Assembly: GCF_009758015.1 (NCBI RefSeq) | Contig: NZ_WSEL01000009.1 | Location: 1,413,501-1,477,500, forward strand | DNA length: 64,000 nt | DNA from: Ramlibacter pinisoli | Lineage (GTDB): Bacteria; Pseudomonadota; Gammaproteobacteria; Burkholderiales; Burkholderiaceae_C | Direction of reading: 5' to 3' | In this document: positions 41,305 to 58,803 of the stretch, piece after piece | Layout: each line of letters begins with the position of its first letter | How positions within the stretch are numbered: the stretch's first letter is position 1 | The notes under the pieces: generated by a model | The model's database searches: none | What the model was told of the DNA's origin: nothing | What the model saw: the letters and a program-made list of their open reading frames with translations, nothing else | Position numbers and translations under genes: made by a program

Positions 41305-41330
41305 GTTGCGGCGGGCGCTGTTTGGGTTCA
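41305..41330 (-). promoter_or_regulatory. ECF-type promoter motif for peptide cassette 1
   Basis: On the minus strand TGAACC (41325-41330), a 15-base spacer and GCAAC (41305-41309), followed by TCATAG. One of six such motifs in this locus with identical spacing. It lies about 70 bases before the class A start codon. Upstream is an AT-rich CGATTTCCCG, also seen at the cassette 2 site. Confidence 0.82.
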
Positions 41331-41528
41331 CGGGAAATCGAGCTGAATTCGCTCCGGTTGCCCGGCCCCGTCTCCCGCCTGTCGCGGCGCAAGCGAGCCG
41401 CGCGCAGCTGGCAACCCGTGGCAGGGCGTCGATGTCGATCGCCATGCGGTGCAAGCGAGCGCGGGGCGCACGCCTGCACGTGCGCCCCGCGCTCCCGGTT
41501 CGGCCGCGTCAGGCCGGCGCCGAGCGGA

Positions 41529-43343
41529 CTACTTGAACTGAACCACGAAGCTGGCTTCGGCCAGCTCGTCGGCGCCCATGCGCGCAAAGGCGCTTCGCAC
41601 CTCGCCGAGCGAGCCGACGGGCAGCTTCTCGAAGTCGGTGCCGACCACCTGGGGCGGCAGCTGGTCGACGGGATCACGGGCGCCCGCGAAGCAGGCAATC
41701 GTCTCCGTCACCTTGCGTGTGTTGGCCAGGATCTCGAACCTCATCGGGCCGGGGATCTCCAGCGGCTCGGCCGCCGTCACCAGGGCGCTCGTGCGGAAGC
41801 GGTTGGGATGGAAACGCACGATGCGCTGGGCCTCGTCCTGCAGGTAGCAGTAGACGTGCGCATCGTGGCTGGTGACCACCCGCAGCCGCACGCGCTCGCC
41901 CGGCTGGTAGCGGCCATCGGATCCCAGGGGAGCGATGGTCAGGGCGCGCGGCACGGCGGTGGCGACCTGCGCCGGCGGCTGTGCCGCCTGCAGGGGCGCA
42001 GGCGCGACGGTTTCCGGCGCGGCGGGTCCCGGCTCGGCCGCCCTGCCACCCTCGACCGGGGCTGCCGGCTGAGGCGCGACGGCCTGCGCCGCCCCGGCGG
42101 CAGGCGCCGCGTGTTGCTCCGTGCGCGTCGTCAGGACGAGCGCGCCGGCCGCCAGTGCGGCCAGTGCCAGGGCGATGCCGGCGGCGCGGCGACCGAGCTT
42201 CGGCAACTTGCGCCGCGCCGTGGCCGCAGGCACCGGTCGCACCAGGGTTGCCGCAGCCGCCAGGTCCTCCTCTGCCCCGCGTGCCGCCGCGCCTTCCGGC
42301 TCTCCTTGCCGATGGCCCAGCGCGGGATTCACGGCCGTTCTCGACAGGGTCGTCGCGGCGGGCGCCGCGCGGGCCGGCCGTTGCGTCGCCACCGCCGCGC
42401 CAGAATCGACGCCGGCGAGCGCACGCGAAAACTCGGCCACGGTCTGGAATCGGGCGGACGGATCCTTCTGGAGCGCCCGCATCACCGCGGCCTCCACCTC
42501 GGTCGGCACGTCGGGGGCGAGCGCGCGCAGCGGCGGCGGCGCCTGCTCCAGCTGGGCCTTCATCAGCGCGAGGTCGGTGTCGGCGTCGAACGGCGCCCGG
42601 CCGGCCAGCATCGTGTACAGCACGATGCCGAGCGAATAGATGTCGGAACGGACGTCGGCGTCTGCGCCACGGATCTGCTCGGGCGACATCGCCTTGGCCG
42701 TGCCCGCAACCTGCCCGACGCGCGTGAGGTGCTCGTGGCAGTCGATCGCGCGGGCGATGCCGAAGTCCATGACCTTCACCGCGCCGCTGTCGGCCACCAT
42801 GATGTTCGCCGGCTTGATGTCCCGGTGCACGATGCCGTTGCGGTGGGCATGCTCGATGCCGTCGAGCGCCCGCCGGAAGATGCCCAGCGCCCGCGCGACG
42901 GGCACCGGGCCGCCGGAGCGAACGAACTCGTCGAGCGAGATCCCGGCCACGAATTCCATCACCATGAACTGCTTGTCGCCTTCGTGCAGGAAGGCATGGA
43001 CGGTGGCGACATTGGGGTGGCTGAGCTGTGCGTGCAGCCGCGCCTCGCGGCTGAAACGTGCGACGAAGAGCGGGTCGCACGCGAACTCGGGATGCAGCAC
43101 CTTGATCGCGACCTCGCGCTTGAGCACCTCGTCGACGCCCTTGTACACCGCGCCGACGCCGCCCTCCCCGAGCCGCTTCGTGATGAGATAGGGGCCGACA
43201 CGGCTGCCGACCAGGGAGCGCTCTGCGGCCGGCCGGGCTGTCGCCAGCCGCGGATCGGCGCCGTCGGATGCACCGCCGGGCTGCATGTCCCTGTCCTGGG
43301 CATTGCCCGCCCGAAATCGCGTCGTCAAGGTCGACAGATTCAT
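41529..43343 (-). CDS. Membrane Ser/Thr protein kinase with DUF4384 domain (PpkA-like)
   Basis: Hanks-type kinase of 604 residues. Gly-rich loop GEGGVGAVY (59-67), Lys81, catalytic HRDIKPAN (173-180), DFG (193-195) and SPEQ (220-223) are all present, so it should be active. A membrane helix (386-405) leads to a periplasmic C-terminal part with a DUF4384-like region (about 485-570). In type VI systems a PpkA-type kinase, a PP2C phosphatase and an FHA protein form a Thr-phosphorylation switch; all three are in this locus. The start has an AGGAG site. Its promoter motif matches the ECF set. Confidence 0.92.
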   Translation of the reverse strand: MNLSTLTTRFRAGNAQDRDMQPGGASDGADPRLATARPAAERSLVGSRVGPYLITKRLGEGGVGAVYKGVDEVLKREVAIKVLHPEFACDPLFVARFSREARLHAQLSHPNVATVHAFLHEGDKQFMVMEFVAGISLDEFVRSGGPVPVARALGIFRRALDGIEHAHRNGIVHRDIKPANIMVADSGAVKVMDFGIARAIDCHEHLTRVGQVAGTAKAMSPEQIRGADADVRSDIYSLGIVLYTMLAGRAPFDADTDLALMKAQLEQAPPPLRALAPDVPTEVEAAVMRALQKDPSARFQTVAEFSRALAGVDSGAAVATQRPARAAPAATTLSRTAVNPALGHRQGEPEGAAARGAEEDLAAAATLVRPVPAATARRKLPKLGRRAAGIALALAALAAGALVLTTRTEQHAAPAAGAAQAVAPQPAAPVEGGRAAEPGPAAPETVAPAPLQAAQPPAQVATAVPRALTIAPLGSDGRYQPGERVRLRVVTSHDAHVYCYLQDEAQRIVRFHPNRFRTSALVTAAEPLEIPGPMRFEILANTRKVTETIACFAGARDPVDQLPPQVVGTDFEKLPVGSLGEVRSAFARMGADELAEASFVVQFK

Positions 43344-43400
43344 CTTCACTCCTGCAGCAAGCCCATCAGGCAGCACGGTCCTGTCGGCAACAGGCGATGG

Positions 43401-43426
43401 GTTGCCGCTTCCGGCCAGGCGGTTCA
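43401..43426 (-). promoter_or_regulatory. ECF-type promoter motif for the Ser/Thr kinase gene
   Basis: Minus-strand TGAACC (43421-43426), 15-base spacer, GCAAC (43401-43405), then CCATC. It sits about 60 bases before the kinase start codon. Same spacing as the five other sites, slightly divergent after GCAAC. Confidence 0.75.
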
Positions 43427-43649
43427 CTGTTTCCGGCGAGCTGCTCGACCGCGCGGCCGGCCCCGCCGCGCTACCGGGCTGCGCACGCCCGTGCACGATA
43501 GGACAGCGGGCTTCGCTGCGCCAGTTTCGGTTGTTGCCCGGACGCCCGTTGACAGCCAATCGCGTCCTGCATAAGTTTGCAGCGCCCCCGAGCGTCGACT
43601 CGCGACCTTCGCCCTCACCAGGGCGCACCGCGGCGAGCTGAAACCGGCA

Positions 43650-43680
43650 TGAACCGTTTGAGTGCCGGTCGCAACTCAGG
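43650..43680 (+). promoter_or_regulatory. ECF-type promoter motif for the export operon
   Basis: Plus-strand TGAACC (43650-43655), 15-base spacer, GCAAC (43671-43675), then TCAGG. It lies about 97 bases before the outer-membrane factor gene, the first gene of the export operon. Confidence 0.8.
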
Positions 43681-43771
43681 GTGCCGACAAGCTCCTGGCA
43701 GCGATGCGAGAGCGCGAATCCCGCGCCAGGAGATCCCGCCGGCAAGGTTCGATTCTTGAGCAGGGGGCGCA

Positions 43772-45172
43772 ATGAGGCAGACCATTCTTCTCTCCGGCTT
43801 CTGTGCGGCACTTCTGTGCGGTTGCGCGGACGTCCGCATCACCGAATACCAGCGCCCGGAGGCACCCGACAAGCCGTCCTGGTCCCGCCCTTCCGGCACC
43901 ACCCCCGTGTCCGCTGCCGACACGATTTCGACCCAGTGGTGGACGGAGTTCCGCGATCCCTACCTGGACTCGCTCGTGGCCAGGGCGATCGCGGGCAGCT
44001 TCGACCTGAAGATCCTGGCGGCCCGCATCGACGTGGCCAACCTGCAGATCGCCGAGGCCGGCGCGGGCGGCAAGCCGACGGTGGACATCGGCGCCGGCGC
44101 CAACATCGAGAAGTCGACCGGGCAGCGCACGAGCAAGCAGTACAGCGTGGGCGCCCAGGTGAACTGGGACATCGATGTCTGGGGCAAGTACGCCAAGGGC
44201 GTCCAGGCCCAGACCGCCGAGTTCAACGCGACCGAGGCGGACTGGCGCGCCGGCTACCTGACGCTGGCCTCCAGCGTCTCGACCACGTACTTCCAGATCC
44301 GCCTGTTCGACGAGCAGCTCGAGGACCAGCAGCGCGCGCTGACCCGGAGCCAGCAGATCCTGGCCATCTTCGAGACGATGCGCAGCAACGGCCTGGTGCC
44401 CACCACCCAGGTCCAGCGCCAACGAGCGGAAACGGCCCGGCTCACCAAGGACCTGCTGGAGCTGCGCCGCCTGCGCGACGTCTCCGAGAACGCGCTGGCC
44501 ACCCTGGTCGGGGTGCCGGCCGGACAGCTCAAGGTGCCCGTGGGCCGCCTCCAGGACCGGGTGCAGCTCCCCACCGTGCCCACCGGACTGCCGTCGCAGT
44601 TGCTGGCGCGGCGGCCCGACATCGTCGCGGCCGAGTTCCGCGTGCTTGCCGCCCATGACCTGATGGGGCAGGCGAAGCTCGAACAGTTGCCATCCATCGG
44701 CCTGACCGGGCGCGGCGGCTCGGCCAGCTTCGCGCTGAGCGACCTGCTCAAGTCCTTCACGTTCGGGCTCGCGCCGAGCATCAACATCCCCGCGCTCAAT
44801 CCCGGCATCAAGGCGCGCGCCAAGACCAGCGAGGCGCAGGTGAAGGTCGCCGAGCAGGAATACCGCCGCACCGTGATCGCCGCGTTCGAGGACGCAGAGA
44901 ACGCGCTGGTGAACCTCGACGCCCACCGCCAGCAGCGCGAACAGCTCCAGCTGCAGGTCAAGGAGCTTCGGCAGGTCGGGGCCAGCAGCACGACGCAGCT
45001 GGCGGCCGGGCTCATCTCGCAGCTCGAGGTGTTCGAGAACGAACGCTCGCTGCTTGCGGCCGAGCTGGCGCTGCTCGCGAGCCACCAGCAGGTCCTCTCC
45101 GACACGGTCACCCTCTACAAGGCGCTGGGTGGCGGCTGGGCGCCCGTGGAGGTCGCGAATGCCCGCCGCTGA
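43772..45172 (+). CDS. NodT/TolC-type outer-membrane factor lipoprotein
   Basis: Outer-membrane channel of 466 residues. The signal peptide ends in a lipobox LLCGC (Cys18), then the NodT-family repeats: WWTEFRDPYLDSLVARA, a central ARRPDIVAAEFRVLAAH and AFEDAENALVNLDAHRQQ. It would be the outer-membrane exit of a type I secretion system with the HlyD adaptor and C39 ABC exporter of the same operon. NodT proteins normally serve RND pumps, but no RND pump is near. It overlaps the FHA gene by 14 bases. Confidence 0.9.
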   Translation: MRQTILLSGFCAALLCGCADVRITEYQRPEAPDKPSWSRPSGTTPVSAADTISTQWWTEFRDPYLDSLVARAIAGSFDLKILAARIDVANLQIAEAGAGGKPTVDIGAGANIEKSTGQRTSKQYSVGAQVNWDIDVWGKYAKGVQAQTAEFNATEADWRAGYLTLASSVSTTYFQIRLFDEQLEDQQRALTRSQQILAIFETMRSNGLVPTTQVQRQRAETARLTKDLLELRRLRDVSENALATLVGVPAGQLKVPVGRLQDRVQLPTVPTGLPSQLLARRPDIVAAEFRVLAAHDLMGQAKLEQLPSIGLTGRGGSASFALSDLLKSFTFGLAPSINIPALNPGIKARAKTSEAQVKVAEQEYRRTVIAAFEDAENALVNLDAHRQQREQLQLQVKELRQVGASSTTQLAAGLISQLEVFENERSLLAAELALLASHQQVLSDTVTLYKALGGGWAPVEVANARR

Positions 45173-47672
45173 CAGTGCACTGCAGCGCGAGGCGCCTCCG
45201 GCTGCCCCGGAGGCGCCGACGGGCAGTGCGCAGGACATTGTGCTCAAGCCGCTGTCCCGACCCGAGCTGGGCGACATCCGCGTGGACGGCGTGCTCGCCG
45301 TGGGGCGCGCCGAGCAGCCTTTCGCGACCTTCCGGGACGACACGGTCGTCTCCCTGTCGCGCCGGCACGCCAGGCTCTTCTGCGAGGCCGGCGAGGTCTA
45401 CGTGGCCGACCTGGGCAGCAGCAACGGCACGACCGTCAACCGCGCCGCGGTCGGCCCATCACCGCATCGGCTGCGCGACGGCGACGAGATCTGCTTCGGC
45501 GGCGTGCTGTCGTACCGGGTGCAGATCGGCCCGCGCACCAAGGCGCGGCCGGATGCGTTCACCCTGACGCTCGCGCCCGCCGCCGAGGGGAAAGGCCTGG
45601 AAACACTGGTCATCACGCGCTTTCCCTTTCTCGTCAGCAAGACCGAGGGCGCGTTCTCCCAGCAGCGCGGCGAGCATGCCGCGCAGTTGAGCTACCTGTC
45701 GCGGCGGCACGCGCACATCTTCCTCAAGGGCGGACGCGCCTGCATCGAGGACCTGGGAAGCACCAACGGCACCTTCGTGGACGGGCTGCGCCTGCAGGAG
45801 TGCGCGGTGCCCCTGCAGGACGGCGCCCTGCTCGCCTTCGGGGGGGACCACTTCACCTACCGGGTGGGCGTCACGCAGGCCGCCGGGCTCGACCTGCCCC
45901 AGCCGCGCGAGCTGGCCGAGCCGGCCGAGCCGACCCGGGCGGGCCAGGCGCAACCCGCCGACAACCGCTCCTCCGCAGCCGGCGGCAAGACCACGTTCGT
46001 GGCGGCGCCGACCTCCTTCCTCGACATCTTTTGCGTCGAGAACGCCCTCGACGAGAGCGCCGAAGGCAGCCGCCCGACGGTGCCCGCCGTCGCCGAGCAG
46101 GCACCCGGCCGCCGCCCGCGCCGGCGCGCGGCGGCGCTGTGGTCCGAGCTCGCCTCGGTCTTCCAGGGCCACGACGAAGGCGGGACCAGGCGCGGCCCCT
46201 GGCGGGCCGTGGCGCTGGTGGCGGTCCTGGCCGCGGCGGGCACCGCGCTGTACTGGTGGGACGCGCCCGATCGCCAGCTCAAGGACCTGGTCGCCAGTGG
46301 CGACTACGCACAGGCCGCGCTGGTGGCGGACCGGTCGCTGGAGCAGCGCCCGGACGATGCGCAGCTCAAGGCGCTGTCCATCGAGGCCGCCCTCAAGGCG
46401 AACGTGCCGGCCTGGCTCGCCAAGGTGGCGGCGCGCGACTTCGACGGCGCCGGCGCCGTGACCGCCGCCATGTCCCGGCTCGGCGTGCGCAATGCCGAGC
46501 TGCGGCCGCTCGTGGCGGAACTGGAGTGGCTGGGCCAGCTCGAACGGCTGGTCAACCAGCGCGGCGGGCCGGACCAGCCGATCCGCATCTACGCCGACGA
46601 GGACGCCATCGCCGCCCTCATCGACCGCTGGAACAACGACACGCGCGAGCACCAGCGCGCCCTGGCCCGCATCGCGTCGTACGTGCCGCAGTTCGGCGCC
46701 CCCTACGCCGAGGCCCTGACCCACGTGCGCAAGCTGCAGAGCGAGGCCAGCGTGCACCTGGGGGTGATCGAGCGCCTGAAGACCACCATCGTCGCCGAGC
46801 TCAAGCGCGACCGGCCGGAGGCGCTGGACCCCGTCCTGAAGGAGGTCGCGGCGAAGTATCCCGGCCTCGGCGGGCTGGACAGCGTGCGCCAGGACCTGAA
46901 CCGGTATCTCGAGATCCGGTCGGAAGCGCGCGCCGGACGGCCCGGCCGGTTGTTCGCGCTGGTGCTCAAGGGCCGCTTCGCGACGCCACCGTTCCAGGAG
47001 CGCTTCGATGCGCTGGCCGCGAGCGGGCAGCTGCCGCCGGCCGAGGCGGTCCGCCAGTACGAAGCCGCCACCCGGGCGTGGAAAGAGGGCCAGGCCGACT
47101 CGTCGCTCGAGGGTCTGCGGCAGATGGCCGCCGGGCCCTGGGCCGCAGCGGTCCAGAGGGAGGTGGAGCGCCGCCAGGCCGTCCTCACCCGGTTCGCGGC
47201 GCTGCAGGCAGCGCGCGGCGCCAGCGGCTATGCGGACCAGTTGCTGGCGTTCCGCCTCGCGCTGGACCCCGAGGAAGACGCTCACTTCGCGCGCGCCACG
47301 CAGGCGGACCTCGACCAGAACAAGGACAAGGTGCTTGCGCGGGCCCAGGACACCGTGAGCCGGGCGCGGCTGGCGTGGCAGGACTACCGCGGCCAGGGCG
47401 GCATCGAAGCCTCGCAGCGCAGCGAGATCGCCGTCTCGGGCCCGTTCCGCGCCCGGGCCCGCCTGCTCGCCGACGCCAACAGCTACTCGCAACAGGCCCT
47501 GCAGATGCATGCGCAGCTGGGGGCCGCCCCGCCGGAGGGCCTGGCCACGCTCCACGCCGAGATCAAGGCCGAGATGGATCAGCAGCGCACGGCCTTGCGC
47601 GAGCTGCGCAACGTGCTCGAGCCGGACCTCCTCAAGAGCAAGCTGGCACTGCTGGGAGACCCTGAGCGATGA
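45159..47672 (+). CDS. Twin-FHA-domain membrane protein
   Basis: An 837-residue protein with two forkhead-associated domains that read phosphothreonine: FHA1 (about 46-122; Arg50, SRRH 67-70, Asn89) and FHA2 (about 152-236; SRRH 181-184, Asn203 in GSTNGTFV). A Pro/Ala-rich linker and one membrane helix (about 348-367) lead to a large helical C-terminal region (about 370-837) of unknown fold. It is a probable phospho-dependent scaffold for the locus kinase, comparable to Fha of type VI systems, but inserted in an export operon. A GGAGG site supports the ATG. It overlaps the HlyD gene by four bases. Confidence 0.9.
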   Translation: MPAADSALQREAPPAAPEAPTGSAQDIVLKPLSRPELGDIRVDGVLAVGRAEQPFATFRDDTVVSLSRRHARLFCEAGEVYVADLGSSNGTTVNRAAVGPSPHRLRDGDEICFGGVLSYRVQIGPRTKARPDAFTLTLAPAAEGKGLETLVITRFPFLVSKTEGAFSQQRGEHAAQLSYLSRRHAHIFLKGGRACIEDLGSTNGTFVDGLRLQECAVPLQDGALLAFGGDHFTYRVGVTQAAGLDLPQPRELAEPAEPTRAGQAQPADNRSSAAGGKTTFVAAPTSFLDIFCVENALDESAEGSRPTVPAVAEQAPGRRPRRRAAALWSELASVFQGHDEGGTRRGPWRAVALVAVLAAAGTALYWWDAPDRQLKDLVASGDYAQAALVADRSLEQRPDDAQLKALSIEAALKANVPAWLAKVAARDFDGAGAVTAAMSRLGVRNAELRPLVAELEWLGQLERLVNQRGGPDQPIRIYADEDAIAALIDRWNNDTREHQRALARIASYVPQFGAPYAEALTHVRKLQSEASVHLGVIERLKTTIVAELKRDRPEALDPVLKEVAAKYPGLGGLDSVRQDLNRYLEIRSEARAGRPGRLFALVLKGRFATPPFQERFDALAASGQLPPAEAVRQYEAATRAWKEGQADSSLEGLRQMAAGPWAAAVQREVERRQAVLTRFAALQAARGASGYADQLLAFRLALDPEEDAHFARATQADLDQNKDKVLARAQDTVSRARLAWQDYRGQGGIEASQRSEIAVSGPFRARARLLADANSYSQQALQMHAQLGAAPPEGLATLHAEIKAEMDQQRTALRELRNVLEPDLLKSKLALLGDPER

Positions 47673-49844: not shown

Positions 49845-52800
49845 ATGGACACGCGGGCCGCGGACCAGCCTCACGCCGACTTCCTGGCGACGGTCGACCT
49901 GTTCTCCACTTTCACGCGGGCCGACATCGACCGGATCGCCGAATGCGCGCAGCCGCGCTTCTTCGCGTTCGGCGACACCGTGTGCAAGGCCGGCGAGGCG
50001 GCCGACGGCCTGCTCGTCGTCAAGTCGGGCGCGATCCGCGTCTTTGCCGAGGAGCAAGGCAAGGAGGTCAGCCTGGGGGTGCGCAAGGCCGGCGACGTGC
50101 TGGCCGAGATGGTCATGCTGCGCGAGCACCGGCATGAGGTGTCGGCGCGCGCCTCGGCCAAGGCCGAGGTGCTGTACATCCCGCGCAGCTGCATCGGCCC
50201 CCTCGTGGCGGGCAACCCTGCAGCGCGCGCGTTCGTCGCGAGCCGCGTCGCGATCAGTTCCGCCGGCGGGATGATCAGCCAGCTGTTCGACCTGCGCGGC
50301 AAGGTCGACAAGAACGAGCTCGAGGAGCTGATCCGCAGTGTCGGCGTCAAGCAGGTCGCCGCCGGCAAGGAGATCCTGAAGCAGGACTCGCGGGACGATC
50401 GCAGGCTGTACGTGGTGCGGCACGGCGCGGTGCGCCTGGTGCGCCACGAGGAAGGCACCGACTACCCGCTCGCCACGCTCGGGCACGGCGAAACCTTCGG
50501 CGAGAACGCCTGCCTGATGCGCCAGGAGCAGTTCGCCGCGGTGGTGGCCACCACCGACTCGGCGTTGCTGGTCATCCCGGAGAAGACGGTCCAGTTCCTG
50601 CTGGGGCGCAATCCGAAGCTGCGCGAGGCGCTGGAAGAGCGGATGCGGCTGCTCGACCGGGAGCTGCAGCGGCAGAAGAAGATGGCCGAGCGGCGCAAGC
50701 TGCCGGCGATGATCGACCTGGCGTCGAAGGCCGAGTTCGGCGAGAAGGTCATCGCGCGCTTCGCGTGCGTGCAGCAGGCCGAGGAGATGGACTGCGGGGC
50801 GGCCTGCCTCGCGATGATCTGCAAGCACTACGGCATCGGCATGACGCTGGGCAAGCTGCGCGAGCTCGCCAACGTCACGACGCAGGGCGCCACGCTGGAG
50901 AGCCTGGCCCGCACCGGCGAAGCGCTCGGGTTCACGACACGCGGCGTGCAGTGCACGATGGACGCGCTGCGCGGGTTCGAGCTGCCGCTCATCGCGCACT
51001 GGATGGGCTACCACTACATCGTGGTCTACGGCGTGTCCAAGCGCAACGTGTGGGTGGCCGACCCCGCGACCGGGTTCAAGAAGATGACGGTGGAGGAGTT
51101 CGAGCGCGGCTGGAGCGGCACCTGCCTGGTCTTCACGGCCGGCGAGGACATGGCGCAGGTGGCCGCGACGCGGTCGCCCTGGGTACGGTTCGCGCGCTAC
51201 CTCGTTCCCCACAAGAAGGTGCTGCTCCACCTGTGCCTGGCGACCTTCGTGATCCAGATCCTGGGGCTCGTTCCGCCGGTCATCATCCAGAACATCCTGG
51301 ACGGGGTGATCGTGCACCAGGACGTGAGCCTGCTGCACCTGCTGATCGTCGGCCTGGTCGTCTCGCACCTGTTCACGCAGCTCATGGCGACGATCCGGGC
51401 GACGCTGGCGAACTTCATGGTCCGCAAGCTGGACTTCGACATGATGTCACAGTTCCTCAAGCACACGCTCTCGCTGCCCTATTCGTTCTTCGCCAAGCGC
51501 AAGACGGGCGACATCTTCGCGCGGTTCCAGGAGAACCAGACCATCCGGGCCTTCCTGACGGAGTCCACCGTCTCGACCGTGCTCAACCTGTTGATGGTCT
51601 TCGTCTACTTCACGGTCATGTTCCTCTACAACGTGAAGCTGACGCTGCTGCTGATCGCGTTCGTCGCCCCCATCCTGGCGTTGACGGTGCTCGTGACGCC
51701 GAAGATCAAGGCCTTTGCGCGCGAATCGTTCACGGCGGGCACCGACGCGAAATCGTTCCTGATGGAAGCGCTGGGCGGGGTGGAGACCGTCAAGGGCATG
51801 GGCATCGAGCGTCCGGTGCGCCTGAAGTGGGAGAAGAAGTACGCCAAGGCGCTGGAAGTGGCGTACCGCTCGCAATCGTTCAACATCCGCATCGGCCTGG
51901 CGGGGCAGCTGCTGAACGCCGCCACCACGGTGGCGATCCTGTGGGCCGGCGCCAGCCTGGTGCTCTCGCGCGAACTCACCATCGGCCAGCTCATTGCGTT
52001 CAACGCGCTGATGGGCAGCGTGCTCGCACCGCTGATGGGCCTGGTGGGCCTGTGGAGCATGCTCAACGACGCCGGGGTGGCCATGGAGCGGCTGGGCGAC
52101 GTGCTCGACCTCGAGCCCGAGCAGAGGCCCGAGGACCTGGCCTCCCGCGTCGCGCTCCCGGAACTCCAGGGTGACATCCGCCTGGACGGCGTCTACTTCC
52201 GCTACGGCGGTGACGAGACGTCCTACGTGCTGGAGAACATCAGCCTGGCGATCAAGCCCGGCGAACTCATCGCCATCGTGGGCCGCAGCGGGTCGGGCAA
52301 GACGACGCTGGCCAAGCTGCTCGTGGGCTTCTACCCGCCCACCGAAGGCAAGCTGACCGTGGACGGCTACGACATGAACGTGATCGACAAGGAGTACTAC
52401 CGGTCGCAGGTCGGCTACGTGATGCAGACCAACCTGCTGTTCTCGGGAACCATCGCCGAGAACATCGCCAGCGGCGACGCCAGCCCCGATCGACGCCGCA
52501 TCGAGGAGGTCGCGAAGAAGGCCGATGCGCACGCCTTCATCAGCAAGATGCCGCTGGGCTACGAACAGGTCGTCGGCGAGCGCGGCATGGGGCTGTCCGG
52601 CGGGCAGATCCAGCGGCTGTGCATTGCCCGGGCGCTGTACCACGATCCCCGGCTGCTGGTGTTCGACGAGGCGACATCGGCGCTCGACACGCAGTCCGAG
52701 AGCAACATCATCGCCGCCATGAGCGACATCCTGGAAGGGCGAACCGCGGTGATCATCGCGCACCGCCTTAGCACCATCATGCGCGCGGACAAGATCCTCG

Positions 52801-52907
52801 TGCTCTACGAAGGCGCCATCGTCGAGCAAGGTACGCACGAGGAGCTGGTGGAGCGGCGCGGGATGTATTACGAGCTGGTGCAGAAGCAGTTGAGCGCCGC
52901 GACCTGA
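49845..52907 (+). CDS. C39-peptidase ABC exporter with two cyclic-nucleotide-binding-like domains
   Basis: Peptidase-containing ABC transporter of 1,020 residues. Order: two cNMP-binding-like domains (about 15-135 and 145-265), C39 protease (about 300-435; Gln311, Cys317 in EEMDCGAAC, His390, Asp406 in ADPATG, all catalytic positions present), six-helix exporter domain (about 455-740) and ATPase (Walker A GRSGSGKT 813-820, LSGGQ 917-921, LLVFDE 937-942). It should cut leaders after the double-glycine motif and export the core. The arrangement matches cyanobacterial HetC-like exporters. The extra domains suggest gating by a nucleotide or another ligand. Confidence 0.93.
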   Translation: MDTRAADQPHADFLATVDLFSTFTRADIDRIAECAQPRFFAFGDTVCKAGEAADGLLVVKSGAIRVFAEEQGKEVSLGVRKAGDVLAEMVMLREHRHEVSARASAKAEVLYIPRSCIGPLVAGNPAARAFVASRVAISSAGGMISQLFDLRGKVDKNELEELIRSVGVKQVAAGKEILKQDSRDDRRLYVVRHGAVRLVRHEEGTDYPLATLGHGETFGENACLMRQEQFAAVVATTDSALLVIPEKTVQFLLGRNPKLREALEERMRLLDRELQRQKKMAERRKLPAMIDLASKAEFGEKVIARFACVQQAEEMDCGAACLAMICKHYGIGMTLGKLRELANVTTQGATLESLARTGEALGFTTRGVQCTMDALRGFELPLIAHWMGYHYIVVYGVSKRNVWVADPATGFKKMTVEEFERGWSGTCLVFTAGEDMAQVAATRSPWVRFARYLVPHKKVLLHLCLATFVIQILGLVPPVIIQNILDGVIVHQDVSLLHLLIVGLVVSHLFTQLMATIRATLANFMVRKLDFDMMSQFLKHTLSLPYSFFAKRKTGDIFARFQENQTIRAFLTESTVSTVLNLLMVFVYFTVMFLYNVKLTLLLIAFVAPILALTVLVTPKIKAFARESFTAGTDAKSFLMEALGGVETVKGMGIERPVRLKWEKKYAKALEVAYRSQSFNIRIGLAGQLLNAATTVAILWAGASLVLSRELTIGQLIAFNALMGSVLAPLMGLVGLWSMLNDAGVAMERLGDVLDLEPEQRPEDLASRVALPELQGDIRLDGVYFRYGGDETSYVLENISLAIKPGELIAIVGRSGSGKTTLAKLLVGFYPPTEGKLTVDGYDMNVIDKEYYRSQVGYVMQTNLLFSGTIAENIASGDASPDRRRIEEVAKKADAHAFISKMPLGYEQVVGERGMGLSGGQIQRLCIARALYHDPRLLVFDEATSALDTQSESNIIAAMSDILEGRTAVIIAHRLSTIMRADKILVLYEGAIVEQGTHEELVERRGMYYELVQKQLSAAT

Positions 52908-53008: not shown

Positions 53009-53788
53009 TCACAGGACCGGGTGGATCACGGTGCGGTCGGGGCTGTACAGGTCCTCGGCGCGGACTACCACGGCGGTGATGTTATCGCGCCCACCGTGTT
53101 CGAGCGCGAGATCGAGCAGTTCCTGCGCCGCCTGCCCGCAGTTGCCGGGCAGCAGCGCCTGCTCGATGGCCGCCTCGCCGACCTCGTTGGTCAGGCCGTC
53201 GGTGCACAGCAGGAAGACGTCGCCGTCGAGGACTGCGTGCGTCACGCAATCGATCTCGATCGTGTCCTCGGCGCCGAGCGCGCGCGTGATGACGTTCGAA
53301 GCCGGCAGGTGCAGCGTGTCCTCGCCCGGGCGGCCGCGGGACCGGACCGCCTCGACCTCGCTGTGGTCCCGCGTGAGCTGCCCGAGACGGCCGCTCCGAT
53401 AGAGGTAGACGCGGCTGTCGCCGGCCCACAGGCATGCGCACTGGCGTTGCCACACCAGCAGCGCCGCGATCGTGGTGCCGATCAGCGGCACATCGCGCCG
53501 CGCCGCCTCGTCGCGAAGCCGGCGGTTCGCACCCTGCAGCCGTTCCTGCGCCTGGGCGACATGGTGCACCAGGGTCTGCGGGGACGGAAGGTCGGTCAGG
53601 GAGCGGATCGCCAGCCGGCTCGCGAACTCGCCCAGCGCATGGCCTCCCATGCCGTCGGCGACGGCCCAGGCCCCGCGTCCCGGCTGTTCCAGGCAGGCGT
53701 CCTCGTTGACCTCGCGGACGCGGCCCGCGTGCGAACACGAGGCCGACGTCCAGCGAAACGGAGAAGATTCCATGCTCGCGTCGCTCAA
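53009..53788 (-). CDS. PP2C-family Ser/Thr protein phosphatase
   Basis: Metal-dependent phosphatase of 259 residues, with the PP2C motifs VREVNEDACLE, VADGMGGH, GTTIAALL, LCTDGLTNEV and GRDNITAVVV carrying the metal-binding aspartates. It should reverse the action of the locus Ser/Thr kinase, as PppA does for PpkA. It is last in peptide cassette 2, its ATG overlapping the class C precursor stop by four bases, so it is expressed with the peptides. A second ATG 15 bases in is possible. Confidence 0.93.
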   Translation of the reverse strand: MSDASMESSPFRWTSASCSHAGRVREVNEDACLEQPGRGAWAVADGMGGHALGEFASRLAIRSLTDLPSPQTLVHHVAQAQERLQGANRRLRDEAARRDVPLIGTTIAALLVWQRQCACLWAGDSRVYLYRSGRLGQLTRDHSEVEAVRSRGRPGEDTLHLPASNVITRALGAEDTIEIDCVTHAVLDGDVFLLCTDGLTNEVGEAAIEQALLPGNCGQAAQELLDLALEHGGRDNITAVVVRAEDLYSPDRTVIHPVL

Positions 53789-54087
53789 AACGGCTTCGGC
53801 ACGGCGACGTCGACGTCAACGTCAACGTTGACGTTGATGGCGTTCTGGACCGCGGTGACGTTGATCACCGCATTGGGGGCGCTGTTCTCGACGTTGATCG
53901 TCTGCATCTGGACGTTCAGCTGGTCGGCGAAGAAGTTGAGGATCGGCGGGGTCCGGGCGCTCTCGGGTGCGAAGGCGCGAAAAGCCCCGAAGACCCAGGG
54001 CGCGCCGCCTGCGCCGCGGATGAACGACATCGCCCGGAAATCCAGGGCCCGGCTCAACGGCAGGTCCTTGATGGTCATGGTGCTCAT
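53785..54087 (-). CDS. Class C leader peptide precursor, long form
   Basis: A 100-residue precursor with leader TIKDLPLSRALDFRAMSFIRGA and core GGAPWVFGAFRAFAP, matching the short class C gene of cassette 1. It then continues through QLNVQMQTINVENSAPNAV into a strictly alternating hydrophobic/polar tail (INVTAVQNAINVNVDVDVDV), suggesting one long beta strand or amyloid-like stacking. The tail is encoded by repeated GACGTC/AACGTC hexamers. The stop overlaps the phosphatase start by four bases. Confidence 0.8.
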   Translation of the reverse strand: MSTMTIKDLPLSRALDFRAMSFIRGAGGAPWVFGAFRAFAPESARTPPILNFFADQLNVQMQTINVENSAPNAVINVTAVQNAINVNVDVDVDVAVPKPF

Positions 54088-54160: not shown

Positions 54161-54481
54161 TCAACGACCGCCCCCCGCGCGTCCGCGTCCCCGCACGCCG
54201 CCGCCGATGCCACCGATGCCCAGGCCGGCGAGCAGCGCATCGACGTTCGCCGAGGTGTTCGTGTTGGTGGCGTCCTGGTTGAACGTGTTGTCCGACTGGA
54301 TGTCGACCGGGCCGCCGAAGATGGAACCGTTGCCGATGTTCGCCGCGGTGAACATGGCCTGCCCGTTCGACTGGCTCGTGCCGAGGGCCTGGTTGTCCTG
54401 GCCGCCGTGCACGGCGCTCATCGCCTTGCGGTCGAGATCGGTGCTGGTCGACAGGTCCTTGATGGTCAGGGGGGTGTGCAT
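54161..54481 (-). CDS. Class B double-glycine leader peptide precursor (cassette 2)
   Basis: A 106-residue precursor. Leader TIKDLSTSTDLDRKAMSAVHGG ends at residue 27. The core contains QALGTSQSNGQAM, FTAANIGNGS and IQSDNTFNQDATNTNTSAN, then VDALLAGLGIGG and a Gly/Arg tail. Closest relative is the class B gene of cassette 1. The upstream sequence CCAAGCGAGGTATCCC provides a GCGAGG ribosome site. No Cys in the core. Confidence 0.85.
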   Translation of the reverse strand: MHTPLTIKDLSTSTDLDRKAMSAVHGGQDNQALGTSQSNGQAMFTAANIGNGSIFGGPVDIQSDNTFNQDATNTNTSANVDALLAGLGIGGIGGGVRGRGRAGGGR

Positions 54482-54541
54482 GGGATACCTCGCTTGGAAA
54501 AGAGATGACGTTGAAATCAGGGTGAAGATCGTTGCCTGCGT

Positions 54542-54573: not shown

Positions 54574-54584
54574 CCCGGGCGATG

Positions 54585-54890
54585 TCAGAGCTTGCCGCCG
54601 CGCCCGCGTCCCGGCAGGCCGCCCAGGCCCATGCCGGCGAGCAGCGCATCGACGTTCGTCGAGGTGTTCGTGTTCGTCGCGTCCTGGTGGAACGTGTTGT
54701 CCGACTGGATGTTGGCCGGGCCGCCGAAGAAGCCGGAACCGTTGCCGACGTTCGACGCAGCCAGCATGGACTGCAGGTTCATCTGGCTCGTGCCGATCGC
54801 CTGGTCGTCGGCGCCGCCGCGCACGGCCGCCATGGCCTTGCCGTCGAGTTCCTTGCTGGTGGACAGGTCGGTGATGTGGAGGGTGGTCAT
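54585..54890 (-). CDS. Class A double-glycine leader peptide precursor (cassette 2, second copy)
   Basis: A 101-residue precursor with leader ITDLSTSKELDGKAM then AAVRGG (26 residues). The core opens ADDQAIGTSQMNLQSMLAAS, contains IQSDNTFHQDATNTNTSTN and ends VDALLAGMGLGGLPGRGRG. The C-terminal half is closer to class B than to the other class A genes, so it looks like an A leader joined to a B-type tail, possibly by recombination. It follows the first class A gene by 45 bases. Confidence 0.87.
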   Translation of the reverse strand: MTTLHITDLSTSKELDGKAMAAVRGGADDQAIGTSQMNLQSMLAASNVGNGSGFFGGPANIQSDNTFHQDATNTNTSTNVDALLAGMGLGGLPGRGRGGKL

Positions 54891-54935
54891 GTTCGTTTCT
54901 CGCTTGAAAGGAAGTGGAGGGAGGCGGCGTGGACG

Positions 54936-55229
54936 TCAGAACGGGAACCGGGGGAACCGGGGGCCCAGGCGGGCGAGCAACCCGGCGCCGTCGAAGTTGG
55001 AAGCCGTGTTGGTGTTGGAGGCGGTCTGGGTGAAGGTGTTGTCCGACTGGATGTCCGCCGGGCCGCCGAAGGACGAGCCGTTGCCGACGTTCGCCGCGGC
55101 GACCATGCTCTGGACGTTCGCCTGGCTCGTGCCGACGGCCTGGTCGTCGGAGCCGCCGCGCACGGCCGCCATGGCCTTGCCGTCGAGTTCCTTGCTGGTG
55201 GACAGGTCGCTGATGTGGAGGGTGGTCAT
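54936..55229 (-). CDS. Class A double-glycine leader peptide precursor (cassette 2, first copy)
   Basis: A 97-residue precursor and first gene of cassette 2. Leader ISDLSTSKELDGKAM then AAVRGG. The core begins SDDQAVGTSQANVQSMVAAA, includes IQSDNTFTQTASNTNTASN and ends RLGPRFPRFPF, a Pro/Phe/Arg tail. The ATG is preceded by CCAGCGAGAAACGAC. An ECF-type promoter motif lies about 70 bases upstream, and the sigma gene diverges on the other side. Confidence 0.88.
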   Translation of the reverse strand: MTTLHISDLSTSKELDGKAMAAVRGGSDDQAVGTSQANVQSMVAAANVGNGSSFGGPADIQSDNTFTQTASNTNTASNFDGAGLLARLGPRFPRFPF

Positions 55230-55300
55230 GTCGTTTCTCGCTGGAAGGATGGAAGGTTGTGGGAGGGTGGGGTTGCACTTCAAGGTGAAGGCGACCCTAA

Positions 55301-55326
55301 GTTGCGGGGACCGCAAATCCGGTTCA
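55301..55326 (-). promoter_or_regulatory. ECF-type promoter motif for peptide cassette 2
   Basis: Minus-strand TGAACC (55321-55326), 15-base spacer, GCAAC (55301-55305) then TTAGG, with a T-run just upstream of the -35 element. It would drive A-A-B-C-phosphatase. Confidence 0.83.
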
Positions 55327-55477
55327 CAAAAAAATCGAGCCTGTGCTCGAAAGCTGCTGTTGCCCTCGCGGGTGCCGGGTCGCCGCGCCGCCTTTCCAAC
55401 GGGATGCCGCCGCGGCCGACGCGAAAAGGCCGGGTGATTCCTGCGTTCGAGCTGTCGCCGTCACGGCCGGTCAAGGC

Positions 55478-55483
55478 TATATT
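55478..55483 (+). promoter_or_regulatory. Possible -10 box for the sigma-factor gene
   Basis: TATATT stands out in GC-rich DNA about 27 bases before the sigma gene ATG. A matching -35 hexamer is weak. The TGAACC-N15-GCAAC motif is absent on this strand, so the sigma gene may be transcribed from a housekeeping promoter rather than by itself. Confidence 0.4.
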
Positions 55484-55510
55484 GCGTCACCGCCCTGCAC
55501 CACCGCCCGC

Positions 55511-56107
55511 ATGAACAACGACGAGGTCGCCCAGCTGCTCGTCCGCATCGGCCATGAGGACCAGGCAGCTTTTCGCCAGCTCTACAAGGCGTTCAGCCGC
55601 AAGGTCTACGCCTACGTGCTCAACATGCTGAACGACCACGCGCGGGCCGAGGAGGTCGTGGCGGACACGCTGTACGAGGTCTGGCGGCAGCCGCAGCGTT
55701 TTCGCGGCGATTCGCAGTTCTCCACCTGGCTCATCGGCATCGCGCGCCGGAAGGCGCTGATGGTCTATCGCGCGCGCCGGCCCGACGAGGTGCATGCCGA
55801 CCTCGACGACATCGCCGAGACCACCGCCTCCGAATCGGCCGACGGCTATGCCGAGCTTGCGGACAAGCAACGGCGCGAGGGAGTGCAGCACTGCATGGGA
55901 AAGCTCTCGGACGAGCACCGCGAGTGCCTGCACCTGGTGTTCTACGAGGGCATGGGCCTGGCGGAGGTGGCACAGGTGCAGAACTGTCCCGAGGGCACCG
56001 TCAAGACGCGCCTGTTCCACGCCCGCCAGAAGATCCGCAACTGCCTGCAGGCGCTGCTGCGCCGCGAGGGCAGCGCCCCGGACGCCAAGGGTGCGCTGGC
56101 GTCCTGA
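55511..56107 (+). CDS. ECF-type sigma-70 family RNA polymerase sigma factor
   Basis: A 198-residue sigma factor with region 2 (about 18-92; DHARAEEVVADTLYEVWRQP, RFRGDSQFSTWLIGIARR) and region 4 (about 130-185; MGLAEVAQVQNCPEGTVKTR). It lacks region 3, as ECF factors do. Between cassette 2 and the anti-sigma-like gene it is the obvious candidate to read the six TGAACC-N15-GCAAC motifs of the locus; the AAC in the -35 element is typical of ECF promoters. Direct recognition is inference. Confidence 0.92.
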   Translation: MNNDEVAQLLVRIGHEDQAAFRQLYKAFSRKVYAYVLNMLNDHARAEEVVADTLYEVWRQPQRFRGDSQFSTWLIGIARRKALMVYRARRPDEVHADLDDIAETTASESADGYAELADKQRREGVQHCMGKLSDEHRECLHLVFYEGMGLAEVAQVQNCPEGTVKTRLFHARQKIRNCLQALLRREGSAPDAKGALAS

Positions 56108-56138
56108 AGCCCGGCAGTGTGCGGAGCGAAAAAAAGTT

Positions 56139-56170
56139 TGAACCGGCCACGGACCCCACGCAACACAGGG
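56139..56170 (+). promoter_or_regulatory. ECF-type promoter motif for anti-sigma/caspase operon
   Basis: Plus-strand TGAACC (56139-56144), 15-base spacer, GCAAC (56160-56164) then ACAGGG, with an A-run upstream. It lies in the 136-base gap between sigma and anti-sigma genes, giving the latter its own sigma-dependent promoter, a usual negative-feedback design. Confidence 0.83.
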
Positions 56171-56243
56171 GCAGCGCGGGCATCACCCGCCGAGGTAGAC
56201 ACCATGGTCGAGGTCCAAACATCGCCGACAGGGGAGCACGGAC

Positions 56244-56864
56244 ATGATGAATGAACGTTTTGAAGAGCTGCTCCCGTTCTATGTCAACGGTTCGCTGGGA
56301 GCCGAGGACCGCGCCTTCGTCGAGGACTACCTCGCGAAGAACCCGGATGCCCAGGACGAGCTGGACTGGCATCGCTCGCTGCAGCGACGGGTCCTGGAGA
56401 ACGCGCCGGCCGTGCCGGCCACGATCGGGCTGGCCAAGGCCATGCGCCTGATCCAGGGCGACCGTCCGACGCTGGCCGAGCGCATCAACGCCTTCTTCGG
56501 CGGCCTGGTCCTGCGCCCGAGCTATGCCATGGCCGGCCTGGCGGTGCTGGCCGTGCAGGGCGGCGTGATCCTGAACCTGCTGGGCGATGCCCGCCAGGAC
56601 GCGGACGAGATCCGCGCACTGCGCTCGGTGCATGTCGAAGAAGGCCCGATGCTCAAGATCAGCTTCTCGCCCGACGCCCGGGAAACCGACATCCGCATGC
56701 TGGTGGTCCAGCTGCGCGGCGAGCTGGCCGGCGGCCCGGGCCAGCTCGGCGACTACTACCTGCGGGTGCCGGCCGGCAGCGAGGCCGCGGCGCTGGCCCG
56801 CGCGCAGGCCGCCCCCATCGTCCAGGCCGCCGCGCTGGCGCCCGGCGTGCCGCCCCGGGAGTAG
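56244..56864 (+). CDS. Probable membrane-bound anti-sigma factor
   Basis: A 206-residue protein. The N-terminal cytoplasmic part (1-70) has the layout of anti-sigma domains (ELLPFYVNGSLGAEDRAFVE, then DELDWHRSLQRRV), but lacks the zinc HxxxCxxC motif. One membrane helix follows (about 94-113) and then a periplasmic domain of about 90 residues (EEGPMLKISFSPDARETDIR). Position next to the sigma gene supports the role. The periplasmic part could sense envelope state or be cut by a protease. Two adjacent ATG codons are possible starts. Confidence 0.82.
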   Translation: MMNERFEELLPFYVNGSLGAEDRAFVEDYLAKNPDAQDELDWHRSLQRRVLENAPAVPATIGLAKAMRLIQGDRPTLAERINAFFGGLVLRPSYAMAGLAVLAVQGGVILNLLGDARQDADEIRALRSVHVEEGPMLKISFSPDARETDIRMLVVQLRGELAGGPGQLGDYYLRVPAGSEAAALARAQAAPIVQAAALAPGVPPRE

Positions 56865-56866
56865 CC

Positions 56867-57700
56867 ATGGTCACGCTGCTGACCCGCCGCATCCTGCTGC
56901 GCGGCGCATTGGGCGCCACGGCGCTGCATGTCAGCCGGGTGATGGCTGCGCCCCCGGATCCCAGGCCGGACTCGCGCATCGCCCTGGTGATCGGCAACGG
57001 CGCGTACCGCGCCGCGCCGCTGAAGAACCCGCCGGGCGACGCGAACGCGGTCGCGAAGAAGCTGCGCGACCTCGGCTACGAGGTCACCCTGCGCCAGAAC
57101 ACGTCCCTGCGCGACCTGATCGAGGCGCTGCGCGAGTTCTCGGTGCGCGCCCCCAAGGCCTCGGTGCGCATGCTGTTCTATGCGGGCCACGGCGTGCAGG
57201 TGAAGGGGCGCAACTACCTGGTGCCGGTCGACGCCGACCCGAAGTCGGAAGAGGACATCCCGCGCCAGAGCGCGGACGTCGGCGAGTTCGTCGACCGGCT
57301 CAGCGCGATCCGCACGGGGACCAACATCGTCGTGCTCGACGCCTGCCGCGTGAACCCGTTTGCCGGCGGCGTGATCGTCGGGCCCGACGGACGGCGACTG
57401 AAATTCCGCGGCGCCACGCCGGGCGGCCTGGCGACCGTCGATGCGCCCGTGGGCACGCTCGTGGCCTTCTCCACCGCGCCCAACGGCGTGGCGCTCGACG
57501 GCTCCGACGGCGAGCACAGCGTCTACGCGCGCCACCTGCTGGCCCACCTCCAGACGCCGGGACTGACGATCGAGCAGCTGTTCAAGCGCGTGCGCATCGG
57601 CGTGGCCCAGGACACCGGCCGCGTCCAGGTCCCCTGGGAGTCGTCGAGCCTGACGGCCGACTTCTGCTTCAAGCCGGACACCGGCGGCCGCTGCGGCTGA
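56867..57700 (+). CDS. Exported caspase-like protease (peptidase C14 family)
   Basis: A 277-residue caspase-fold protein. The dyad is His108 (FYAGHGVQ) and Cys160 (VVLDACRVNPF), with the start IALVIGNGAYRAAPLKNP of the domain near residue 38. The N-terminus TRRILLRGALGATAL resembles a twin-arginine signal, so it is probably periplasmic. It starts two bases after the anti-sigma gene, so one possible job is signal-dependent cleavage of that protein's periplasmic part; this is speculation. A second caspase-like domain is fused to TssJ downstream. Confidence 0.9.
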   Translation: MVTLLTRRILLRGALGATALHVSRVMAAPPDPRPDSRIALVIGNGAYRAAPLKNPPGDANAVAKKLRDLGYEVTLRQNTSLRDLIEALREFSVRAPKASVRMLFYAGHGVQVKGRNYLVPVDADPKSEEDIPRQSADVGEFVDRLSAIRTGTNIVVLDACRVNPFAGGVIVGPDGRRLKFRGATPGGLATVDAPVGTLVAFSTAPNGVALDGSDGEHSVYARHLLAHLQTPGLTIEQLFKRVRIGVAQDTGRVQVPWESSSLTADFCFKPDTGGRCG

Positions 57701-57716
57701 GGCACGCGCCTGGCGC

Positions 57717-58670
57717 TCAGGCGTGATCGGCGATGAAGCGCTCGAGTTCGCGCGCGAACCGCCCGGGCTCGCTGAGATGTGGCGAATGCCCGGCGCGAGG
57801 GTAGACCGAGATCTGCGCGTGCCGGACCGTGTCGCGGTACCAGGCATCGAGGGGCAGGCCGCCGTAGTGCGGGCTGCGCGCCCCGAGCACGACGAGCAGC
57901 GGGGCATCCAGGCGCGCCAGCGATGCGCGGAAATCGGCTTGCGCCATCGACTCGGCCAGGTCGAGCAGCGGCCGCACGTCGATGCGGCCCAGGCGCCGGC
58001 GCAGCATCCTGCCGAGCGGCGCCTCGGCGGCCAGCTGGCGCCTGAGCCAGGCCCCACCGAAAGCGCCCAGCTCGCTCAGCAGCGTCTCGGCCAGGTCGCG
58101 CCGCGCACCCGCGATCAGCCCGGCGAGCATCTCCGCGCTGCAGCCGCCGAACAGGCCGAGACGCCAGCCGTCGTCCGTCACGATGCGCGGCGACTGGTCG
58201 ATCATGGTCACGGCCCCCACATGTTGCGTGCCGTACGAATGCAGGTACTGCATGAGCACCAGAGCGCCCATCGAATGCCCCACCAGCGCCGACCGGTCCA
58301 GCCCGAACTGCTCGATCATGTCCGCCAGGTCGGCCGCGAGCCGCGCGAGGGTGATGCTGCCCAGCACCGGACGGCATTGGCCATGGCCGCGCGCATCCCA
58401 GGCCAGCACGCAATGGCGCCGCGCCAGCCGGCGGGCCACCGGCAGCCAGTCGCCATGCGAGCACCCCACGCCATGCACCAGCACCAGCGGCGAGCCTTCG
58501 CCGAGCACGCACACGGGGACGACCTGCCCGTCGCTGGCCGTGAAGGTGTCGTAGTTGCCGGTGGTGGGCCCCCCCATCAGCCCGAAGTTGCGCAGCGCAT
58601 TCCACGTGCCGCGCAGGCCCGTCAGCGGCGGCGGCCGTGCAGGCGGTTCGGGCGGGGCGTGGTCGAGCAT
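57717..58670 (-). CDS. Alpha/beta-hydrolase family protein
   Basis: A 317-residue serine hydrolase. The nucleophile elbow is GHSMGA, the oxyanion region VLVHGVGCSHGDW, and the catalytic His in RAGHSPHLSEP; a conserved Asp lies earlier in the C-terminal third. No signal peptide was seen. It is on the opposite strand to the surrounding secretion genes, convergent with the caspase gene, and lacks the ECF motif, so it may be unrelated to the locus. Substrate unknown. Confidence 0.87.
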   Translation of the reverse strand: MLDHAPPEPPARPPPLTGLRGTWNALRNFGLMGGPTTGNYDTFTASDGQVVPVCVLGEGSPLVLVHGVGCSHGDWLPVARRLARRHCVLAWDARGHGQCRPVLGSITLARLAADLADMIEQFGLDRSALVGHSMGALVLMQYLHSYGTQHVGAVTMIDQSPRIVTDDGWRLGLFGGCSAEMLAGLIAGARRDLAETLLSELGAFGGAWLRRQLAAEAPLGRMLRRRLGRIDVRPLLDLAESMAQADFRASLARLDAPLLVVLGARSPHYGGLPLDAWYRDTVRHAQISVYPRAGHSPHLSEPGRFARELERFIADHA

Positions 58671-58772
58671 GGCGGCGTCGAGCGTGCTGGCGCACTATGC
58701 GCCCGCCTCCAAACGTCATGCAAGCCGCTCAGGCGCGCGAAGGGCATCGGGACGTTCCAGACGAAAAGAAAT

Positions 58773-58803
58773 TGAACCGGCCCCCGGGCGCGGGCAACAC
58801 AGG
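58773..58803 (+). promoter_or_regulatory. ECF-type promoter motif for ompA-caspase/TssJ-tssL-tssM
   Basis: Plus-strand TGAACC (58773-58778), 15-base spacer, GCAAC (58794-58798) then ACAGG. Nearly identical to the site before the anti-sigma gene from the upstream A-rich stretch through ACAGGG. About 58 bases before the OmpA-family gene. Confidence 0.83.

Follow-up and report, generated by a model that had tools for sequence, protein, structure and literature searches.

Extracytoplasmic function (ECF) sigma factors of the RpoE/AlgU, SigK and SigW types serve a broad envelope stress response, and HrpL is the sigma factor of group ECF32. According to the available part of PMC4149516, the regulon of HrpL, also an ECF factor, is marked by a hrp box of the form GGAAC-N16-17-CCACNNA. 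EcfK/PknS of Xanthomonas citri and EcfP/PknT of Vibrio belong to group ECF43, whose members are activated by a kinase and typically have a region 2.2 without acidic residues and with a phospho-acceptor threonine; EcfK controls genes of the type VI secretion system (T6SS) and is, together with PknS, the link between ECF sigma factors and T6SS that was found in the literature (available parts of PMC8999054 and PMC13147305). Here, a stretch of 64,000 nucleotides (nt) from Ramlibacter pinisoli (contig NZ_WSEL01000009.1, positions 1,413,501 to 1,477,500; hereafter the window) was analyzed, in which an ECF sigma factor gene at 55511 lies among six copies of the bipartite motif TGAACC-N15-GCAAC. With a probability of about 0.9, judged from sequence evidence, these copies and a seventh one beyond the window are promoters of this sigma factor, whose regulon would essentially be a single gene neighbourhood.

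Compared with HrpL targets, the motif has a nearly identical -35 element (GAAC) and, counted alike, reads TGAAC-N17-CAACNCA, which fits the spacing of the hrp box; the -10 element shares CxAC..A, and both sigma factors seem to be dedicated to secretion genes. However, the -35 element starts with T instead of G, the -10 element reads CAAC or CGAC rather than CCAC, the target is not a type III system, and a probable anti-sigma gene is located beside the sigma gene. The sites were therefore not assigned to the hrp box (GGAACC/CCACNNA), from which they differ at the first base of the -35 and the second base of the -10 element in a comparison of promoters rather than proteins. As with EcfK and EcfP, Hanks-type kinases are encoded near the sigma gene, whereas the retained AEEVVAD and the adjoining probable anti-sigma gene distinguish it from ECF43; membership of this group, known to us by its description, was rejected, since region 2.2 reads AEEVVADTLYEVW in the window. 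Residues A46, E47, E48 and D52 are invariant in 28 sigma sequences. Moreover, EcfK targets a T6SS, whereas TssC, Hcp and TssF were not found in the R. pinisoli genome. The closest PDB sequences are those of RpoE/AlgU-, SigK- and SigW-type factors; the adjacent probable anti-sigma factor, with its predicted N-terminal three-helix bundle, may be a further resemblance, but the present system appears to have a dedicated local regulon and has a caspase gene in the anti-sigma operon. The exporter operon of the cluster resembles NHLP and microcin C39 exporters (matches below the family cut-offs) in its ATP-binding cassette (ABC)/C39, HlyD and TolC components, Gly-Gly leaders and TIGR04500-related peptidyl-prolyl isomerase (PPIase), and differs from them by two cyclic nucleotide (cNMP)-binding domains, an FHA protein, a first peptide of cassette 2 whose listed relatives align with its core as well, and the presumed control by an ECF sigma factor.

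The six exact matches in the window, for which the initial annotation had given correct coordinates and strands as judged by exact motif search, compare with a mean of 0.01 and a maximum of 1 in 100 dinucleotide-shuffled copies. All of them lie outside the genes called here, in agreement with their proposed intergenic location, and the start codon comes 68, 57, 96, 71, 79 and 37 nt after the final base of sites 1 to 6, respectively; the range of 58-104 bases claimed earlier is thus about right for five sites and too long for the one before the OmpA gene. A seventh exact site is present on the minus strand at window-equivalent 70224-70249, 6.2 kb beyond the window end. Throughout the 5.5-Mb genome (99.98% complete), 12 exact matches were detected versus 6 for the backwards-read pattern, and 7 of the 12 fall within the 29-kb cluster, so the genome-wide scan suggested in the initial annotation finds them concentrated there. 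Among the five matches elsewhere, four lie inside long, unrelated reading frames, which we take from their sequences, without family search, to be SelO, TctC, Mfd and GltB, and the fifth is at C3:1446596. When the motif was extended by NCA, seven exact matches remained in the genome (six in the cluster), and with at most one mismatch 12 matches were found versus 2 for the reversed pattern.

Scanning genome contigs with the sigma protein yielded 28 loci (480 kb) from Variovorax, Azohydromonas, Rhizobacter, Rhodocyclaceae, one distant member of Gemmatimonadetes and others, which contain 58 exact motifs and no match of the reversed control. In a survey of spacing that covered the window region and 27 loci (583 kb, GCRAC allowed, the Gemmatimonadetes locus L043 left out), 85 motifs had a spacer of 15 nt, each of the other spacer lengths between 8 and 24 nt was represented by no more than three, and none was found with the reversed pattern. 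Conservation extends beyond the letters searched for: among 65 sites, position +29 is A in 64, +28 is C in 59 and +27 is C in 54, and an A-rich stretch lies upstream of the -35 element. Starting from genes instead (sites within 450 nt upstream, with OmpA identified through protein homology, independently of the motif), a site was detected before OmpA in all 22 readable loci; the other six of 28 were omitted because the OmpA start or the preceding 450 nt lay outside the stretch. Sites also precede the anti-sigma gene in 14 of 28 loci, namely the window region and 13 loci of the Variovorax clade (L016-L028), and the caspase-1 match in 4 of 17, whereas none was found in the same interval before caspase-TssJ (0/19), TssL (0/11), TssM (0/7), the hydrolase (0/12) or HlyD (0/1), which is the pattern expected of operon promoters. 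In two further genomes, G199 (L063) and G098 (L064), the homologous TolC gene is preceded by a site; the homologous kinase has one directly before it in G199 and about 750 nt upstream, with a small frame in between, in G098.

The motif and this sigma factor also occur together. Of 299 genomes of the family searched, 17 had a match to the sigma protein at E 1e-40 or better, with an identity of at least 58% in 13 and of 44-48% in the remaining four. Each of the 13 genomes with a close sigma factor carries two or more extended sites (64 matches; reversed control 2), compared with 6 of the 286 without one (Fisher p 1.4e-18). The position of the site relative to the sigma gene differs between lineages: in three genomes (L067, L069 and L070) it precedes the sigma gene by 62-90 nt, in eight further genomes it heads an OmpA-sigma-anti-sigma-caspase operon, and in the window and 13 Variovorax-clade loci it is located between the sigma and anti-sigma genes. 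In seven Rhodocyclaceae-type loci, which were kept out of the weight-matrix training, GCGAC is found in 14 of 16 matrix matches, and in six of the seven loci one match starts 50 nt upstream of the sigma gene's first aligned codon. Region 4 of a sigma factor reads the -35 element, and between Rhodocyclaceae-type and window-type sigma proteins no fixed difference exists in columns 123-178 (region 4); fixed differences in region 2 include columns 69, 80, 84 and 86 and a two-residue deletion at 93-94, with region boundaries assigned by ourselves. It is suggestive that the change from GCAAC to GCGAC may match these region 2 differences. Taken together, the conservation, the fixed N15 spacing, the co-occurrence, the sites in sister lineages and the -10 variant accompanied by a change in region 2 point to this ECF sigma factor, and thereby favour the local ECF regulon claimed in the initial annotation.

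Several observations weigh against this assignment. The co-occurrence counts are uncorrected for kinship, and the 286 genomes without a close sigma factor hold 49 extended matches versus 18 reversed ones, an unexplained excess; at least five of the 49 repeat the letters of the match in the GltB frame, and eight are in G273 (85% complete), where they are distributed over four contigs and no sigma gene was found. Five stretches of this genome (L079-L083) include one with a kinase homologue and none with the sigma gene. The four genomes with a distant sigma factor (44-48%) have 0, 1, 0 and 0 extended sites, and a matrix match is present in only two of five distant sigma loci (L057-L061). Only 4 of 27 loci have TGAACC-N15-GCRAC in the 450 nt that precede the sigma gene itself. 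A coding frame contains at least one of the 58 exact motifs (L025, 14952), and site 55301 deviates at the NCA extension by one mismatch. In addition, the fixed differences between the two sigma types are also found in the N-terminus, in region 2.1-2.2 and in the linker.

The initial annotation spoke of T6SS genes, and the membrane complex TssJ-TssL-TssM (profile matches), OmpA, TagF (whose gene is also in the group headed by OmpA), FHA, kinase and phosphatase genes are indeed present. These are T6SS-type families, and TssC, Hcp and TssF were found somewhere in 9 of the 13 sigma-bearing genomes, both of which would fit a regulon that drives a conventional T6SS with its remaining genes elsewhere. 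However, the same searches gave no match for TssC, Hcp or TssF in the whole R. pinisoli genome (TssB, TssK, VgrG and ClpV were outside the genome-wide search), so the term T6SS should be used with reservation. The single TssM of this genome is in the present locus, and G098 and G199 likewise have a sigma-linked TssM while TssC, Hcp and TssF were undetected; in G118 all four were undetected. TssM lies 4.7-9.2 kb from the sigma gene in 11 of 13 genomes, the exceptions being G271 and G118 (assemblies of 380 and 240 contigs), and in the other 8 of these 11 the genes for TssC, Hcp and TssF lie more than 0.5 Mb away or on different contigs, each genome carrying at least one further TssM. A conventional T6SS as the target is thus improbable. 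With TssC, Hcp and TssF undetected or distant, the sigma-linked set is better described as a membrane and phospho-signalling module than as a T6SS locus; it could equally have arisen from an ancestral T6SS that lost its tube or by recruitment of the membrane complex.

It was also considered that the motif is bound by another regulator travelling with the cluster, either a second ECF sigma factor or a classical transcription factor. A first look at the R. pinisoli genome gave 21 loose sigma-like candidates (10 scored), the sigma gene of the window clade has no motif site, and a gene for a LacI-family regulator (37266-38345) lies about 2 kb away from the cluster. But the motif has the features of a sigma promoter: it is asymmetric and oriented, its spacing is constant, and in this genome starts follow 36-96 nt after it. 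Moreover, the sigma factor is the sole transcription factor recognised among the cluster proteins scanned, and in sister lineages the sigma gene, or the operon containing it, is preceded by a site, which makes a different regulator quite improbable. That the sites are merely a repeated element left by recent duplication within the locus, as the apparently duplicated peptide cassettes with their leader regions might hint, is hardly credible, since the spacers differ in all six sites, conservation is confined to both elements and some adjoining bases, and the sites precede non-homologous genes and persist across genera.

The identity of the gene at 55511 as an ECF sigma gene, proposed previously, was borne out by a family search that found sigma regions 2 and 4: the 198-residue protein contains PF04542 and PF04545/PF08281 only and matches TIGR02937 above the cut-off, and it is accompanied by a -35 element with a GAAC core, a group-specific -10 element and putative target promoters within its own locus. 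No matrix match scoring 8 or more was found upstream of the gene, as the initial annotation had noted. Instead, TATATT lies 33 nt before its ATG, and a TATATT-type element about 30-45 nt before the sigma start was seen by eye, between divergent flanks, in the window and all 13 Variovorax-clade loci (about 9940-10003 in L016-L028); it is a candidate housekeeping promoter of the sigma gene.

The protein encoded at 56244..56864 is probably a membrane-bound anti-sigma factor. Its gene directly follows the sigma gene in 27 of 27 loci (L016-L042) and in 16 of 17 (L045-L061), NCBIfam anti-sigma families match it weakly, and its structural model has helices at 2-15, 20-32 and 36-52 with a pLDDT (predicted local distance difference test) of about 77-90 and a later helix at 98-114 within a stretch of pLDDT under 50. 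The available part of PMC7406223 describes class I anti-sigma factors as an N-terminal three-helix bundle plus a fourth helix, often with one membrane helix and an optional zinc motif. Hx3Cx2C is absent from the sequence, and no PDB anti-sigma factor was matched by profile or among the fold matches listed.

In the proposed working of the regulon, TGAACC would be the -35 element and GCAACNCA the -10 region. The anti-sigma factor would keep the sigma factor inactive at the membrane until an envelope signal frees it, and binding of the sites by the freed sigma-RNA polymerase would lead to transcription of the anti-sigma and caspase genes as negative feedback. The polymerase would also transcribe the two Gly-Gly peptide cassettes together with the TolC-FHA-HlyD-PPIase-ABC/C39 exporter, which should cleave and secrete these peptides, the DUF4384 Ser/Thr kinase, the membrane module of OmpA, caspase-TssJ, TssL, TssM and TagF, and the Tll0287-HAMP/kinase/FHA/PP2C set past the window end. 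Given the separate TATATT-type element, basal synthesis of the sigma factor, with control by the anti-sigma factor, is expected in the window clade; in sister lineages, where a site precedes the sigma gene or the operon containing it, the factor would activate its own expression.

The secreted cargo appears to vary by lineage, as comparison of the loci indicates. The exporter operon and the homologous kinase recur in G098 and G199 with sites upstream, whereas in 11 of 13 Variovorax-clade loci, Azohydromonas lata (L030), a Rhizobacter metagenome-assembled genome (L035), G197 and G066 the sites precede repeat proteins that are rich in Asn, Ser, Thr or Gln and have a Sec-type signal at the start (by eye). 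In three translated operons (L022, L066 and L075), the gene of the repeat protein precedes those of a small, apparently secreted protein and of a protein resembling lipoproteins; the latter carries DUF4384 and a peptidoglycan-binding domain in L075 and L030, and the L022 operon encodes a DUF2807 protein too. A curli or holdfast link of this operon is only hinted at by a weak HfaB match (E 1e-4, 21.6 of 300 bits); no Pfam CsgG or curlin match was obtained, and the model is too weak to support the link.

A tentative reading, somewhat short of even odds, is that a sheathless, T6SS-derived envelope complex serves as a phospho-regulated platform for assembly or secretion that is wired by the ECF sigma factor to interchangeable extracellular cargo. 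Its parts might be caspase-TssJ, TssL, TssM, OmpA, TagF, FHA, kinase, PP2C and the Tll0287 sensor; the cargo could conceivably be, depending on the lineage, either the Gly-Gly peptides with the cNMP/FHA-equipped type I exporter or the Sec-secreted, Asn/Ser/Thr-rich repeat proteins with their lipoprotein partner. The locus offers a testable sigma-promoter pair predicted purely from sequence, for which nature provides a -10 variant (GCAAC versus GCGAC) beside sigma region 2 differences, and a gene set expected to act together, in which caspases are both fused to a tube-less T6SS membrane complex and encoded around it, with a peptide exporter nearby. It raises the questions of what TssJLM does without a sheath and which role bacterial caspases play in an envelope response.

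The features of the cluster are listed in Table 1. Type I peptide secretion with C39 processing is represented by all of its components (ABC/C39, HlyD, TolC and Gly-Gly leader substrates). The 120 relatives listed of 432 for the first peptide of cassette 2 align over 80-100% of its length, core included, and the caspase-TssJ fusion is widespread, both domains being present in the 120 relatives listed of 989.

Table 1. Promoter sites and genes of the cluster in window coordinates (gene starts follow the reading frames and could be off by a few codons).
Feature	Position	Strand	Basis or remark
Second-type leader peptide, cassette 1	40339..40506	-	reading frame
Gly-Gly leader peptide, cassette 1	40579..40893	-	reading frame
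Gly-Gly leader peptide, first gene of cassette 1	40952..41236	-	reading frame
Putative promoter site 1, upstream of peptide cassette 1	41305..41330	-	exact motif; start 68 nt away
Ser/Thr kinase with C-terminal DUF4384	41529..43343	-	PF00069, PF14326; HRDIKPAN and DFG
Putative promoter site 2, upstream of Ser/Thr kinase	43401..43426	-	exact motif
Putative promoter site 3, upstream of export operon	43650..43675	+	exact motif
TolC/NodT-type outer-membrane channel	43772..45172	+	PF02321; TIGR01845 above cut-off
Two-FHA-domain protein	45054..47672, true start probably near 45170	+	PF00498, two stretches
HlyD-type adaptor	47669..49042	+	PF13437
Parvulin-like PPIase, TIGR04500 relative	49117..49824, start maybe slightly upstream	+	TIGR04500 below cut-off (90 of 180 bits)
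ABC exporter, two cNMP-binding domains and C39 peptidase	49845..52907	+	C39 Cys and His present
PP2C phosphatase	53009..53755	-	family match; Stp1-type below cut-off
Second-type leader peptide, cassette 2	53785..54087	-	reading frame
Gly-Gly leader peptide, cassette 2	54161..54484	-	reading frame
Gly-Gly leader peptide, cassette 2	54585..54890	-	reading frame
Gly-Gly leader peptide, first gene of cassette 2	54936..55229	-	reading frame; 432 database relatives
Putative promoter site 4, upstream of peptide cassette 2	55301..55326	-	exact motif; one NCA-extension mismatch
Conserved element before sigma gene, TATATT at 55478-55483	55470..55492	+	by eye, window and 13 relatives
ECF sigma factor	55511..56107	+	Sigma70_r2 and r4; PDB relatives include sigma-H, SigK, sigma-E
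Putative promoter site 5, between sigma and anti-sigma genes	56139..56164	+	exact motif
Membrane-bound anti-sigma factor (probable)	56244..56864	+	adjacency, weak family matches, partial model
Caspase-fold peptidase	56867..57700	+	PF00656; YAGHG and DACR present
Alpha/beta hydrolase	57717..58670	-	family match; linked in most Variovorax loci
Putative promoter site 6, upstream of OmpA, caspase-TssJ, TssL and TssM	58773..58798	+	exact motif; 11 loci aligned
OmpA-family protein	58836..59429	+	PF00691
Caspase-TssJ fusion lipoprotein	59541..60734	+	PF00656 and PF12790; TIGR03352 above cut-off
TssL (DotU), OmpA-like C-terminus	60722..61852	+	TIGR03349 above cut-off, TIGR03350 below; PF09850
TssM (IcmF)	61849..64000, extends to 65154 past the window	+	PF14331, PF06761, PF06744

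Past the window end, the seventh site leads to a Tll0287-HAMP gene, which is followed by kinase, TagH/FHA and PP2C genes. A FecR-domain protein is encoded at window-equivalent 70247-71215 on the minus strand and adjoins this site; homologues are found beside the Tll0287 gene in G199, G098, G197 and L029, and the protein is possibly a sensor or structural partner. A weaker matrix match, CAAACC-N15-GCAACCCATTGG, is located at 30992-31017 on the plus strand, about 60 nt ahead of a 36-residue reading frame with a Shine-Dalgarno-like stretch; its score of 23.6 compares with 10.8 for the best match in 10 shuffled copies of the 115-kb region, and it may represent an eighth target. The window also encodes, at 11300-18523 on the minus strand, a hybrid histidine kinase of 2407 residues with about 14 tandem HAMP domains, GAF and three receiver domains.

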